Origin: Angustibacter luteus
Lineage (GTDB): Bacteria; Actinomycetota; Actinomycetes; Actinomycetales; Angustibacteraceae
DNA length: 64,000 bases
Direction: 5' to 3'
Assembly: GCF_039541115.1 (NCBI RefSeq)
Contig: NZ_BAABFP010000002.1
Span: forward strand, 248,001-312,000
In this document: positions 18,779 to 27,804 of the stretch, in pieces
How the letters are laid out: each line of letters starts with the position of its first letter
How positions within the stretch are numbered: the stretch's first letter is position 1
Made by a program: the position numbers and the translations under genes
Notes under the pieces: model-generated
The model's database searches: none
Told to the model about the DNA's origin: nothing
The model's input: the letters and a program-made list of their open reading frames with translations, nothing else

Positions 18779-19903
18779 CGCGTCGTCCCAGCGGAAGAAC
18801 CGGGTGGCCAGCGCGGTCAGGGCAGTCGCGAACGCGAGCAGGATCAGGCAGGGCGTGATGATCTGCGTCCAGCCCAGCCCGCGGGCCAGCACGTCCAGCA
18901 TCGCGTCGTTCATGTGCCGCAACGGGAAGGCCTGGCTGACCGCCTGCAGCCAACCCGGTGCCGCGGAGATGTCGAAGAACGTGCCGGACAGGAACGCCAT
19001 CGGCAGCACGATGAAGTTGGCCATGGCACTGGCCGCCTCGTCGGTCTTCGCGATCGAGCCGACCAGCAGGCCGATGGACAGGAACGCCAGCGTGCCGCAG
19101 ACCAGGATCGGCACTGCCAGCCACCAGCTGTCCGCGAGCTTCAGCCCGAACGGCGGGGTCAGCGCGACCCCGACGTAGACGATTGCCTGCACGAACGCGA
19201 CGACCAGGCTGACGCCGACCCGGGCGGCCACCACCGTCCACACCGGGGCGGGCGAGAGCCGGACCCGACGCAGCAGCTGCTTCTTGCGCCAGCTGACGAT
19301 CGTCAGGGCGGCGCCGAACGTCGCGGACGTCGCGATGCCCCAGCAGAGGATGCCGCCGGTCGTGAACTGGATGGGTCGCAGCGACTCGTCCTCGACCCGT
19401 TGGGCATCCATCGTGAGCCTCGGCGCCTGACCGGTCGCGGCCAGGTTCGACCGGTCCACGACGGCGTTCAGGATGCCCTGCACCGTCGCGGCCTTGACCT
19501 GGTCGCTCGCCGCGTACCGCACCACGAGCGTGTCGCCCTGCTGCGTGACCACCGCCGGTAGGTCGCCCTTGCGAACCGCCTCGATCCCCGCCTCCAGGGT
19601 CGGGAAGGTCTGCAGCTCCAGCACGCTCTGCGGCAGCTGCTGCACCAGGGGACCGTTGCCGACCACCCCGATCGTGGCGCGGCTGCTGCCGGTGTCGTTG
19701 AAGATCAGGCCGAAGACGACGAGGAACATCAGCGGGAAGAAGAACGTGAAGAACAGCGCCATCCGGTCCCGGAAGAAGCTGAGCAGCATCGCCCGGCCGA
19801 GGGTGCGCAGCGACACCCAGGACGACGTCGTGTGCGTCGGCCGCGGGGCGCCGGCCGGGTCGCCGTGCTGGCGCTCGGCGGTGGTCGTCGAGGATGAGCT
19901 CAT
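18776..19903 (-). CDS. ABC-2 type transporter permease
   Basis: A 375-aa permease with the classic ABC-2 layout: a cytosolic N-terminus, a first helix (MALFFTFFFPLMFLVVFGLI), an external domain (about 70-190) and five further helices in the C-terminal half. The ATG used here (MSSSSTTTAERQHGD) overlaps the stop of the ATPase gene in ATGA form; the open frame further upstream lies within the ATPase gene. With its ATPase it forms a DrrAB-like exporter, plausibly for a hydrophobic compound or drug. Confidence 0.9.
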   Translation of the reverse strand: MSSSSTTTAERQHGDPAGAPRPTHTTSSWVSLRTLGRAMLLSFFRDRMALFFTFFFPLMFLVVFGLIFNDTGSSRATIGVVGNGPLVQQLPQSVLELQTFPTLEAGIEAVRKGDLPAVVTQQGDTLVVRYAASDQVKAATVQGILNAVVDRSNLAATGQAPRLTMDAQRVEDESLRPIQFTTGGILCWGIATSATFGAALTIVSWRKKQLLRRVRLSPAPVWTVVAARVGVSLVVAFVQAIVYVGVALTPPFGLKLADSWWLAVPILVCGTLAFLSIGLLVGSIAKTDEAASAMANFIVLPMAFLSGTFFDISAAPGWLQAVSQAFPLRHMNDAMLDVLARGLGWTQIITPCLILLAFATALTALATRFFRWDDA

Positions 19904-20850
19904 GCCCGGTACTCCCGTCCGGTCAGGTGCAGGAAGACGTCCTCCAGGGTGGCGGTACGCACGCTCACCCCGTCGAGCCGGTCGCGCTCGGCGAGCGCCT
20001 GCAGCAGGGTCGCCGGGTGCTTGGTCGTCATCACCAGCTCGAGGTCGCCGGCCTGCACCCGTTCTGCCCCAGGCAGATCCTGGGCCTCGGCCTCGCTCAG
20101 CACGCCGTTCGGCAGGGCTACCCGGGTGTCCGCCTCGAGCCCGCGGACCAGCGCGGCTGGCGTGTCCATCGCAAGGATGCGCCCGTCGTCCATGATCGCC
20201 ACCCGGTCGCAGAGGATCTCGGCCTCGTCCAGGTAGTGGGTCGTGTAGACCACCGTGGTGCCGCGCGACTGGATCTCGCGCAGGACGTCCCACAGGTTGC
20301 GGCGGGCCTGCGGGTCCAGCGCGGCGGTGGGCTCGTCGAAGAACACCAGCTCGGGGTCGTGGATCAGCGCGCAGGCGATGGACAACCGCTGGCGCTGCCC
20401 GCCGGACAGCTTGTCCTCGCGGGTGGCCGCCTTGTCGGTGAGCCCGACGAGCTCGAGCATCTCGTCCACCCGGGCGCCGCCGACGCCGTAGAGCGAGCCG
20501 AACGTCTGCAGCTGCTCGCGTGCCGAGAGCTTCTCGAAGAACGCGGAGGCCTGGAGCTGGACTCCCATGCGCGGCAACAGCTTCGGGTTGCGCGGCCAGG
20601 GCGACTCACCCAGCAGGCGGATCGTGCCGGCGTCCGGCTCGCGCAGCCCCTCGACCATCTCGAGCGTCGTCGTCTTGCCGGCGCCGTTCGGCCCGAGGAT
20701 GCCGAAGAACTCACCGCGGCCGACCGTGAACGACACACCGTCGACGGCGGTCAGCTCGCCGTACCGCTTCACCAGCCCGTCGACCACGATCGCTGTGCTC
20801 GCCTCGCCCGGCTGCCCCGTCCGCCCCTGTCCCACCCCGAGAACCGTCAT
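19900..20850 (-). CDS. ABC-2 exporter ATPase (DrrA-like)
   Basis: A 316-aa ATPase with Walker A GPNGAGKTTT, signature LSGGQRQRLSIACALI, Walker B LVFFDEPTAALDP and switch His YTTHYLDEAE, followed by the regulatory C-terminal domain common in drug and daunorubicin-type exporters. The ATG is preceded by TAGCGT seven bases away with no Shine-Dalgarno, suggesting a leaderless mRNA. It is translationally coupled to the permease. An 86-bp inverted-repeat element (20877-20962) lies immediately upstream. Confidence 0.92.
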   Translation of the reverse strand: MTVLGVGQGRTGQPGEASTAIVVDGLVKRYGELTAVDGVSFTVGRGEFFGILGPNGAGKTTTLEMVEGLREPDAGTIRLLGESPWPRNPKLLPRMGVQLQASAFFEKLSAREQLQTFGSLYGVGGARVDEMLELVGLTDKAATREDKLSGGQRQRLSIACALIHDPELVFFDEPTAALDPQARRNLWDVLREIQSRGTTVVYTTHYLDEAEILCDRVAIMDDGRILAMDTPAALVRGLEADTRVALPNGVLSEAEAQDLPGAERVQAGDLELVMTTKHPATLLQALAERDRLDGVSVRTATLEDVFLHLTGREYRA

Positions 20851-20857
20851 GCACGCG

Positions 20858-20863
20858 ACGCTA
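20858..20863 (-). promoter_or_regulatory. leaderless -10 element of the DrrA-like ATPase gene
   Basis: TAGCGT (minus strand) ends seven bases before the ATG at 20850. The inverted-repeat element begins 14 bp further upstream. Confidence 0.5.
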
Positions 20864-20876
20864 CCCGAGCCCCGCC

Positions 20877-20962
20877 GTTGATCACGTTAAGTGGGTCTGC
20901 ACCCGCTTCTCGAGGCGAACGACCCTCGACAAGCAGGTCTACGCCTACTGAACGTGATCAAC
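20877..20962. repeat. 86-bp element with terminal inverted repeats, overlapping the meaB 3' end
   Basis: Ends GTTGATCACGTTAAGT (20877-20892) and ACTGAACGTGATCAAC (20947-20962) are inverted copies with one mismatch. An internal 10-bp near-perfect hairpin, CTTCTCGAGG/CCTCGACAAG, surrounds the loop. A related copy lies at 27710. The right end supplies the last codons and stop of meaB. It looks like a small non-coding mobile or REP-type element. Confidence 0.7.
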
Positions 20963-21925
20963 ATCGGAGGTGACGGCGGCGACGAGCGAATCGGCTGCGG
21001 CGTAGGGGTCCTGGTGCCCGTCGACGACCTGCGCGGCGAGCTCGTCCAGCCCGCGGCCGTGGCGCAGGTCGCCCATCCGCTCCCGCAGCTGCACCAGCGC
21101 GATCGACTCGATCTCGTCCGCCGCCCGACGCAGCCGGCGCTCCCTCAGGTGGCCGGTCTCGCCCAGCCACGCCTGGTGCTTGTCGAGCGAAGCCATCAGC
21201 TCGTCCATGCCCTCCTCGCGCGAGGCCACCGTCTTGACCACGGGCGGACGCCAGTCCCCGGGCGAGCGCGACTCACCGAGCGAGATCATGTGGCGGATGT
21301 CGCGCACCGTTGCGTCCGCGCCGTCCCGGTCCGCCTTGTTCACCACGAACACGTCGCCGACCTCGAGGATGCCGGCCTTGGCCGCCTGGATGCCGTCCCC
21401 CATGCCGGGGGCCAGCAGCACCAGCGTGGTGTCCGCCATGGCGGCGATCTCGACCTCGCTCTGCCCGACCCCGACGGTCTCGACCAGGACGACGTCGCAG
21501 CCCGCCGCATCGAGCACCCGCAGCGCCTGCGGGGTCGCCCAGGACAGCCCACCGAGGTGGCCACGGCTCGCCATCGAACGGATGTAGACCCCCGGGTCGA
21601 GCGCGTGGTCCTGCATCCGCACCCGGTCGCCGAGCAACGCCCCGCCGGAGAACGGCGACGAGGGGTCCACGGCGAGCACGCCGATCCGCAGGTCCCTGGC
21701 GCGCAACGCCTTCACCAGCGCGGACGTCGACGTCGACTTCCCCACGCCCGGTGACCCGGTGATGCCGATGACGTGCGCGTTCCCGGTGTGCGGCGCGAGC
21801 GCCGCCATCACCTCGCGCAGCGCCGGGTGGGCGTCCTCGACCAGCGAGATCAGCCGCGCGACGGCACGCGGACGCCCCGCCCGGGCCTGCTCGACCAGGG
21901 CGGGGACGTCGACGGCGCGCGCCAC
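20945..21925 (-). CDS. meaB: MeaB/ArgK-type G3E GTPase, mutase chaperone
   Basis: A 326-aa P-loop GTPase that protects and reloads adenosylcobalamin-dependent acyl-CoA mutases. Walker A is GSPGVGKS (57-64), followed by VLAVDPSSPFSGGALLGDRV, VETVGVGQSE and VNKADRDGA. I chose the GTG at 21925, 20 bp after the thiolase stop, giving the usual family length; the frame upstream lies inside the thiolase gene. Its clients are probably IcmA (7248) or ethylmalonyl-CoA mutase (44903). The final residues DVDHVQ and the TAG are encoded by the inverted-repeat element at 20877-20962. Confidence 0.92.
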   Translation of the reverse strand: MARAVDVPALVEQARAGRPRAVARLISLVEDAHPALREVMAALAPHTGNAHVIGITGSPGVGKSTSTSALVKALRARDLRIGVLAVDPSSPFSGGALLGDRVRMQDHALDPGVYIRSMASRGHLGGLSWATPQALRVLDAAGCDVVLVETVGVGQSEVEIAAMADTTLVLLAPGMGDGIQAAKAGILEVGDVFVVNKADRDGADATVRDIRHMISLGESRSPGDWRPPVVKTVASREEGMDELMASLDKHQAWLGETGHLRERRLRRAADEIESIALVQLRERMGDLRHGRGLDELAAQVVDGHQDPYAAADSLVAAVTSDVDHVQ

Positions 21926-21945
21926 GTGGGTGGTCTTCGACCCGG

Positions 21946-23157
21946 TCAGGACTTCGGCACGCGCACGATGAGCGCGTCGCCCTGGCCGCCGCCGCCGCAC
22001 AGGGCCGCCGCACCGACGCCACCACCGCGACGCCCGAGCTCCAGCGCCAGGTGCAGGGCGATGCGCGCGCCGGACATGCCGATCGGGTGGCCGAGCGCGA
22101 TGGCGCCACCGTTGACGTTCACGATGTCGGCGTCGATCCCGAGCTCACGGGTCGAGGCCAGCCCGACCGCCGCGAAGGCCTCGTTGATCTCGACCAGGTC
22201 GAGGTCGGACGGCGCGATGCCCTCCTTCTCGCAGGCCCGCGCGATCGCTCGGGCCGGCTGGCTCTGCAGGGTCGAGTCCGGGCCGGCCACCACGCCGTGC
22301 GCGCCGATCTCGGCGATCCAGCTCAGCCCCAGCTCCTCGGCCTTGGCGCGGCTCATCACGACCACCGCGGCCGCGCCGTCCGAGATCTGCGACGCGGACC
22401 CGGCCGTGATCGTGCCGTCCTTGCTGAACGCAGGGCGCAGCCGGGACAGCGACTCGGTGGTCGTGTCGGCGCGGATGCCCTCGTCGCTGTTGAAGACGAC
22501 CGGGTCGCCCTTGCGCTGCGGGATCTCGACCGGCACCACCTCGTCGTCGAACAGGCCGTTCTTCCAGGCCTGCGCGGCGAGCTGGTGGCTGCGTGCGCTG
22601 AACGCGTCCTGCTCCTCGCGGGTGAACGCGTTGTCGGCCGTGTTCGCGGACTCGGTGAGGTTGCCCATCGCCTGGTCGGTGAATGCGTCCCACAGACCGT
22701 CGTAGGCCATGTGGTCGCGCATCGTCACGTCGCCGTACTTGAAACCGGTGCGCGACTTCTCCAGCAGGTGCGGCGCCTGGCTCATCGACTCCTGCCCACC
22801 GGCGACCACGACCTCGAACTCGCCGGCCCGGATCAGCTGGTCGGCCAGCGCGATGGCGTCGACGCCGGACAGGCACACCTTGTTGATCGTCAGGGCCGGC
22901 ACGTTCATCGAGATGCCGGCCTTCTGCGCGGCCTGCCGGGCCGGGATCTGACCCGCGCCCGCGGTGAGCACCTGGCCCATGATCACGTACTCGACCTGGT
23001 CGGCGGCGACACCCGACTTGTCCAGCGCACCCTTGATGGCGAACCCGCCGAGCTCGGCCCCGCTGAAGCCGGACAGCGAACCCAGCAGGCGGCCCATCGG
23101 GGTGCGAGCCCCACCGACGATGACGGACGTGCGCGGGGACGCGGGCTGTGCGGACAC
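21946..23157 (-). CDS. acetyl-CoA C-acetyltransferase (thiolase)
   Basis: A 403-aa thiolase condensing two acetyl-CoA, or cleaving acetoacetyl-CoA. The nucleophilic Cys95 lies in [13 protein letters not shown], the His in [16 protein letters not shown], and the second Cys in the C-terminal [14 protein letters not shown]. The GTG start is preceded by GGAGG. The meaB gene follows 20 bp after the stop, making a two-gene unit, and the divergent gene is methylmalonyl-CoA epimerase. This and Ccr support an acetoacetyl-CoA to ethylmalonyl-CoA route. Confidence 0.93.
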
Positions 23158-27327: not shown

Positions 27328-27708
27328 ATGCGCATCCTGCACGTGGCACTCCCGGCGGACTGGGCCCGCGGACACGACGACGGCAGCTACGACGTCTCGA
27401 CCCGGGGCGTCTCGCTGGTCGACGAGGGCTTCATCCACGCCTCGACCCTGGCCCAGGTCGGCCCGGTGCTCGACCGCTACTTCGCGGACGTCGCCGAGGT
27501 CGACCTGCTCGTCATCGACCTGGACAAGCTCGACCACGAGGGGGCTCAGGTGATCTGGGAGCACGTCGCGGGCTCCGACGCGCCCTTCCCGCACGTCTAC
27601 GGGGTCATCCCGGCGCAGACCGTCGTGGACGTCGTCCGCCTGGAGCACGCCCCCGGCGGCCCGTGGGAGGTCCCGCAGATCGCTGACGTCGCCACCGGCC
27701 CCGCCTGA
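27328..27708 (+). CDS. DUF952 family protein
   Basis: A 126-aa protein of the DUF952 family, related in fold to glutathione-S-transferase-like or ADP-ribosyl-type small domains of unknown function. The family pattern is seen in ILHVALPADW at the start, SLVDEGFIHASTLAQVGPVL in the middle and PFPHVYGVIPAQTVVDVV near the end. Soluble and single-domain. It is divergent from the hydrolase. A short inverted-repeat element follows its stop at once (27710). Confidence 0.85.
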   Translation: MRILHVALPADWARGHDDGSYDVSTRGVSLVDEGFIHASTLAQVGPVLDRYFADVAEVDLLVIDLDKLDHEGAQVIWEHVAGSDAPFPHVYGVIPAQTVVDVVRLEHAPGGPWEVPQIADVATGPA

Positions 27709-27709
27709 C

Positions 27710-27766
27710 GTTGATCACGTTCAGTGGGTGAGCACCCGCTTCTCGAGGCGAACGTCCCTCGAGAAG
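27710..27766. repeat. second, apparently truncated copy of the inverted-repeat element
   Basis: GTTGATCACGTTCAGT (27710-27725) matches the end of the 20877 element. The perfect 10-bp inner hairpin CTTCTCGAGG/CCTCGAGAAG (27739-27748, 27757-27766) has an 8-nt loop. Similarity continues weakly to about 27790, but the right terminal repeat is missing. It starts two bases after the DUF952 stop codon. Confidence 0.65.
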
Positions 27767-27804
27767 TGGACGTAAACCTGCAGTAGCTGGCGTCGCTGCT
27801 GCCG

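Follow-up and report, generated by a model that had tools for sequence, protein, structure and literature searches.

A short palindromic repeat that ends the meaB gene of Angustibacter luteus points to what may be a widespread, undescribed unit of the Actinobacteria, in which a gene for an AbiEi-winged-helix/PD-(D/E)XK nuclease sits inside its own fast-changing palindrome, and in which the nuclease would recognise and spread that palindrome and could flip its own gene. We hold this general reading tentatively, at somewhat under an even chance. The narrower explanation, that the gene linked to the present repeat (hereafter X) encodes a protein that binds its own palindrome, cuts or nicks it, and lets repair copying spread the copies, we judge evenly poised between right and wrong. 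The window analysed is a stretch of 64,000 nucleotides of the A. luteus genome (G000), which we compared with the genome of a sister species (G001) and with larger genome samples.

The repeat at the 3′ end of meaB

The repeat search returned an 86-bp inverted repeat with arms of 44 nt, 77% complementary, around a spacer of 8 nt (Table 1). The element contains an inner hairpin with an 8-base loop and ends in GTTGATCACGTT(A/C)AGT, and its 16-mer ends, GTTGATCACGTTAAGT on the left and GTTGATCACGTTCAGT on the right, differ by one base. Folded as the minus strand, it reaches -59 kcal/mol, whereas shuffled sequences come to -32.3 +/- 3.3, a z of -8.0, and 0 of 200 folded equally well. A scan of the window finds TTGATCACGTT without mismatch at 20878 (+), 20951 (-), and 27711 (+), and at up to two mismatches it has 27 matches against 3.7 expected.

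Table 1. Features of the window that bear on the repeat and its neighbouring genes
Feature	Position	Strand	Basis or remark
F (symmetric) copy of the palindromic repeat, 86 bp	20877..20962	.	all 19 F copies in both genomes have exactly 74 bp between 12-mer end starts
Left end motif GTTGATCACGTT	20877..20888	+	pattern search
Right end motif GTTGATCACGTT, translated V-D-H-V in MeaB	20951..20962	-	sequence and ORF list
Part of the repeat giving meaB its last five codons and stop (TAG)	20945..20962	-	sequence, sister-genome comparison
meaB, ORF as listed (codon-model start 21925)	20945..22000	-	TIGR00750
ABC transporter ATPase gene downstream of meaB; same neighbour in sister genome, no repeat there	19900..20850	-	ORF list, sister-genome comparison
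H copy, ~74 bp, with one GTTGATCACGTT end, hairpin, and tail	27710..27783	+	pattern search
Gene ending one base ahead of the H copy	27328..27708	+	ORF list, codon model

The gene is identified as meaB by TIGR00750, at 344 bits against a cut-off of 241, and its stop codon lies at 20945-20947 (minus strand). MeaB ends in A-V-T-S-D-V-D-H-V-Q, and the right arm of the element, read on the minus strand as GTT GAT CAC GTT CAG TAG, provides the final five residues and the stop. A sequence-only reading of the window had proposed that the element ends meaB, as it does, and that the repeat encodes D-V-D-H-V-Q-stop; V-D-H-V-Q and the stop indeed come from the 86-bp unit, whereas the first D codon falls just outside it. 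The same 16-mer lies outside any gene at 27710, as that reading had also noted, in a copy that starts one base past the stop of the preceding gene and has only one GTTGATCACGTT end.

The accompanying question, whether the insertion had replaced a conserved MeaB tail, was answered in the negative by comparison: the TIGR00750 match stops at residue 340 of 351, and the sister MeaB ends just ahead of the insertion point. MeaB lost no conserved tail; it gained a new stop and some five residues that are not conserved. We gathered 81 MeaB relatives (80 loci of named records and G001), 80 of them readable and one, L152, unreadable. Most have 7-9 residues after the AAD motif, and the MeaB of the window has 14. 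Unrelated MeaB proteins with the same C-terminus and no element were sought, and the DHV tail occurs in 0 of the 80 readable relatives; the 12-mer GTTGATCACGTT is present at 0 of the 81 loci.

The MeaB of G001 is 88% identical to that of the window, and the same ABC ATPase gene comes next (85% identical). The junction between the two genes is repeat-free there, with TGA straight after A-V-T-A, and thus constitutes an empty site with both neighbours kept, which places the arrival of the repeat at or beside the ancestral meaB stop. In the window, the stop TAG occupies positions 16-18 of the arm, where TGG stands in 67 of 82 arms and TAG in four; three of these four are read by a gene in that frame (meaB, L157, and L180), a pattern that we spotted post hoc and that would fit selection for a regained stop. 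Across the two genomes, nine gene 3′ ends terminate within a repeat end, six at the TGA of the GTTGA tip and three at the TAG of positions 16-18. The repeat has repeatedly provided stop codons, and the meaB case is not unusual for it; it is also a clear example of a repeat adopted as the end of a working gene, with a stop regained inside the repeat.

Forms, copies, and range of the repeat

The impression that the element is a small mobile-looking sequence was borne out by its genomic copies, which make it a dispersed non-coding palindrome with 20 copies in G000 and at least 43 in G001. The pattern TTGATCACGTTNAGT, at no more than one mismatch, matches 25 genome places against 0 for the reversed control pattern, and BLAST with the element against its own genome gives 60 partly overlapping matches at E <=10 and 38 at E <=0.001. 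These matches were reduced to the 20 copies, with one chance match (L017) excluded from the element list; in G001, 40 of 60 candidates were scored. Flanking target duplications, which the sequence-only reading had suggested looking for, were found at 0 of 19 F copies when lengths of 2-9 bp were considered; some known elements make none.

The copies take two forms. The F form (n = 19 over the two genomes together) is symmetric and measures 86 bp. The H form (n = 44) is about 74 bp long and consists of a single GTTGATCACGTT end followed by a hairpin and by a tail, AACCCTCGA, in which part of the 3′ arm of the hairpin is repeated. The GTTGATCACGTT end motif is kept in H copies despite having no pairing partner there, which argues for recognition of the sequence and not merely of the stem. 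Mean identity among F copies is 0.85 within G000, 0.82 within G001, and 0.73 between species, and the corresponding values for H copies are 0.78, 0.87, and 0.70. The one-ended H copies of G001 are no less conserved than the F copies, contrary to what a simple two-ended transposon would predict.

Copies resemble those of their own species more closely than those of the other, and because the two species have few sites in common, this pattern points to spread or homogenisation after the species split. The end motif occurs in 3 of 198 genomes of the order (one by a single one-mismatch match) and in 1 of 396 genomes of a phylum sample that included G000, without G001; in these samples the palindromic repeat is thus restricted to the genus. 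Rfam holds no family matching the element, with only sub-threshold mir-2518 matches elsewhere, and in the open-licence PMC literature no paper on a bacterial repeat was found, by title, for the 11-mer of the repeat.

Gene X between two copies of the repeat

Only three of the 20 G000 copies have more than 450 bp of flank in common with a compared G001 copy; the remaining 17 have no strong common flank, two of them showing weak matches of ~200 bp. Two of the three common copies form an inverted H pair that encloses gene X in both species, and the third lies behind a methyltransferase-like gene in both (gene named by eye). The G000 pair lies some 0.95 Mb away from the window and spans C2:1264148-1265389 (X at 1264230-1265195); the G001 pair spans C20:703461-704713 (X at 703641-704618). 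Among the compared copies, the flanks of X are the sole place common on both sides to both species. X occupies fixed sites in both, and the gene itself is accordingly inherited, not jumping. Between the species, 185 of 322 residues of X are identical, compared with 88% for MeaB, so that X evolves the faster of the two.

X combines an AbiEi-type winged helix with a putative nuclease domain of the Vsr/DUF559/MTES_1575 type. The winged helix matches AbiEi_4 at E 6e-10 and the PADLOC AbiEi models at E 6e-22. Alignment A1 holds 28 of 30 X loci, omitting L196, which contains a stop, and L205, at a contig edge; the 28 aligned members match the profiles AbiEi_4 (15), MTES_1575 REase (11), and DUF559 (6), and all of them share D241, E252, D254, G255, K258, and R279. 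Bearing on a possible PD-(D/E)XK/Vsr-type fold are these MTES_1575 and DUF559 matches (11 and 6 members) and the invariant D, E, D, and K. The profile of the X family matches the endonuclease-like protein 3hrl weakly (E 0.02), and the one structure model, of four distant relatives (L102, L113, L114, and L142), was poor, with a mean pLDDT of 51. The putative nuclease fold is based on the profile matches.

X is flanked by genes for DUF3151 and SfLAP in G000, and for DUF3151 and fructose-bisphosphate aldolase in G001. No AbiEii (DUF1814) toxin gene was matched among the four neighbours scanned, two per genome, and PADLOC gave no match for the two G000 neighbours; by the scan of these four, X is not part of an AbiE pair.

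Palindromes around relatives of X

Within the order, 141 of the 198 genomes searched contain relatives of X, at 1-9 matches apiece. At 75 X loci, we compared the 350 bases upstream of the start with the 350 downstream of the stop, counting inverted or direct repeats at a local score >=40; the loci were 29 of the first 30 (L205, at its contig edge, was dropped), 6 paralogues of G000 and G001, and 40 chosen non-randomly, down a score-ordered list. A common flank repeat was present at 61 of the 75, compared with 4 of 237 control genes of 850-1150 bp. These controls came from eight genomes, sampled as 80 pieces of 20 kb, and were called with a codon model trained on the window, so that gene ends in other genomes are rough. 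When the control was widened to 963 genes with lengths of 400-2500 bp, 21 reached a score >=40 and five >=50. Two of those five, L279 and L282, which are also among the four of 237, are themselves X relatives by sequence (by eye), so the true control background is lower.

The common segments are mostly self-complementary themselves (46 of 61 at a score >=30). The upstream copy lies at a median of 101 bp before the start and the downstream copy at a median of 10 bp past the stop. No common flank repeat was scored at 14 of the 75 loci, L296 included, where a degenerate palindrome is visible by eye. From these comparisons, a gene-specific flanking palindrome is general for the X gene family.

The palindromes are unlike one another between X genes of one genome. 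Pairs of palindromes reach a score >=40 in 4 of 12 cases when the X proteins are at least 56% identical (median 35.5), and in 1 of 1802 below 50%; palindrome likeness tracks X identity, with species relatedness as a confounder.

At one place, the orthologous X relatives L298 (G001 C1:619791-620399) and L299 (G000 C2:731748-732395) are inverted with respect to both neighbours and carry different palindromes, and this could possibly be an invertible segment. At L297 and L300, one flank is likewise inverted, and the other flank has no match.

Palindrome copies away from X were sought in 200-kb samples of eight other genomes and were found at three places in G093, three in G087, and at least two pieces of G135, with no convincing dispersed copies in the samples of G084, G044, G008, G115, and G073. 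The whole genome of G087 gives 22 matches that resolve into 14 places, two at X and 12 elsewhere, and its palindrome has 0 matches in 13 other genomes of its family. Counting G000 and G001, dispersed copies are present in 5 of the 10 genomes examined; in the remaining genomes, the palindrome may be confined to X, or copies may have been missed. The palindromes of three other X relatives of G000 had only weak matches in 125 kb of that genome.

A candidate mechanism

Dispersal by X would account for these observations through the following steps:

(i) The winged helix of X would recognise the end motif of the palindrome, much as proteins of the AbiEi type attach to inverted repeats in the promoters of their own genes. 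AbiEi and Rv2827c are described as binding such repeats and repressing themselves (PMC7319586).

(ii) The nuclease domain of X would cut or nick at the palindrome.

(iii) Copying during repair would carry the palindrome to new intergenic places.

(iv) The F form would be an X unit minus its interior, as suggested by the correspondence of the F halves to the outer ends of the X unit, and the H form would be one end of the unit.

(v) Copies would survive mostly where they are least harmful, directly past stop codons.

(vi) At meaB, a copy would have landed at the ancestral stop, the reading frame would have extended five codons inward, and the stop would have been regained through the TGG-to-TAG difference.

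The empty site at meaB, the greater likeness of copies within each species, the H pairs flanking X, the domains of X, the 61 of 75 flanked loci, the tracking of X identity by the palindromes, the dispersed copies in G093, G087, and G135, the end motif kept in H copies, and the inversion at L298/L299 are all consistent with spread linked to X. Counting against it are the 0 target duplications, the 14 of 75 X loci without flanking repeats, the five of eight sampled genomes without convincing dispersal, the weak matches for the palindromes of three other G000 relatives, the fixed sites of X, the undiminished conservation of H copies in G001, and the confounding of palindrome likeness by species relatedness. 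That X itself disperses the palindrome is what we infer from this evidence as a whole.

Genomic setting of the copies and rival explanations

The copies are intergenic, with overlaps with genes of up to 25 bp, and, by a rough gene caller, 59 of 63 have a gene 3′ end on one side or both. The gaps that hold copies are convergent in 24 cases, tandem in 35, and divergent in 4 (n = 63), compared with 6, 25, and 9 among the gaps of the window that measure 20 bp or more (Fisher p: convergent class 0.014, divergent class 0.030). Within 30 of the 35 tandem gaps, the copy is closer to the upstream stop (median 20 bp) than to the downstream start (median 84 bp).

The main rival explanation, which we think unlikely, takes the palindromes as self-repression sites of X that also act as two-way terminators insulating it, with the dispersed copies being selected terminators or regulatory sites rather than products of X. 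It draws on the placement of copies by gene 3′ ends and in convergent gaps, on the strong hairpins, on the position of the upstream palindrome of X, and on the self-repression of AbiEi and Rv2827c through inverted repeats at their own promoters (PMC7319586). It accounts well for the upstream copy but less well for the downstream and dispersed ones: a second copy just past the stop of X is needless for autoregulation, no T run follows the stem (a search of 20700-21100 returned no terminator-like site), the copy sequences are species-specific, with 17 of 20 having no strong flank in common with compared sister copies, and the sister genome has a clean empty site at meaB.

Alternatively, the repeat could be a MITE, a non-autonomous element moved by an unrelated or lost transposase, in which case the copies around X would merely be old insertions and X would have no role. 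The inverted ends and fixed length of the F copies suit a MITE, as does the species-specific dispersal, but relatives of X whose palindromes are unrelated show this kind of flanking far more often than control genes do, every intact end-motif place found in G000 is an F or H copy with no other such-ended ORF noticed, and target duplication is absent; we regard this explanation as quite improbable. A REP/REPIN family like those already described, with a RAYT (Y1 tyrosine transposase) as its mover, would share the layout of intergenic palindromes with a linked palindrome-flanked gene (PMC3116915), but is highly improbable given that the flanking gene X carries unrelated domains and that Y1_Tnp (PF01797) is absent from the whole of G000, a search that did give matches in 5 of 14 control genomes.

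Within the reach of PF01797, the lack of a match in the whole genome rules out a RAYT for G000. Two further roles were set aside, those of an uptake signal, for which the copies are too few, and of a ParB site, which the sequence does not fit.

Relation to known systems

The partnership of X and its palindrome looks like a REP-RAYT system without the Y1 transposase, and it appears to be undescribed; in the open-licence PMC literature, judged by titles and the starts of abstracts, nothing was found on a link between X and a palindrome. As in REP/REPIN-RAYT systems, the palindromes are short, dispersed, extragenic, lineage-specific, and present in many copies, and a single linked gene, itself passed on at a fixed place, has the same palindrome on either side. 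The differences are that X joins an AbiEi winged helix to a nuclease domain, in a genome without PF01797, that the stand-alone H form is no more decayed than F in G001, and that the GTAG/CGTC tag is missing from the H consensus of either genome (read by eye). A GTAG or CGTC tag at one end is named as a feature of REPs in PMC3733652.

With the AbiE type IV toxin-antitoxin systems (AbiEi; Rv2827c), X shares the AbiEi-type winged helix and the inverted repeats ahead of the gene, whereas it has no adjacent AbiEii toxin and adds a C-terminal nuclease domain, a second palindrome behind the gene, and dispersed copies. The C-terminal domain of the X family resembles the Vsr/DUF559/MTES_1575 REase-fold nucleases by profile and by the weak 3hrl match, but in X it is fused to a winged helix of the AbiEi type, and palindromes enclose its gene. 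PMC3710099 describes the MTES_1575 domain from giant proteins that also carry HEPN and helicase domains. Finally, inverted GTTGATCACGTT ends are common to the F copies and the X unit, and F resembles an X unit that has lost its interior, which is reminiscent of MITEs and insertion sequences; unlike these, the present family has no target duplication and no known transposase fold, and its one-ended H form is commoner than F.

To our knowledge, the RAYT transposase is the known enzyme partner of dispersed extragenic palindromes. If spread by X is true, a second, unrelated enzyme family would be paired gene by gene with its own palindrome, and such partnerships would have evolved more than once; a restriction-type nuclease, and not an HUH transposase, would form the functional counterpart of RAYT-REPIN, with relatives of its gene in most of the sampled genomes of the order. 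It would also account for one kind of short repeat found in high-G+C genomes, and many genes whose annotation goes no further than AbiEi antitoxin domain or DUF559 would acquire a role.

Further observations on X relatives and copies

Another conserved site is occupied by an X relative in each species, L296 (G000 C8:333650-334543) and L295 (G001 C20:93276-94154), with wholly different flanking palindromes. G000 has four further AbiEi_4 places, of which L368 (score 109) and L369 (score 79) are flanked by palindromes; L366 lacks them, and a stop interrupts L367. No X relative was found by protein in viral contigs, where two pattern matches were unrelated, or in PHROGs; plasmids hold five weak relatives.

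A DUF559-type relative of X lies directly beside meaB in L113, L102, and L114 (Terrabacter, Terracoccus, and a Dermatophilaceae bin); in L113, a short inverted repeat separates it from meaB. Pieces L259 and L264 of G135 carry the X palindrome together with neighbouring tandem boxes of ~75 bp, both at X and elsewhere. In G001, some single genes have two or three copies around them at distances of 0.6-1.3 kb (C20:702276-704713, C20:655016-656055, C20:609662-610353, and C1:462219-463598), seemingly beyond what even spacing would give.
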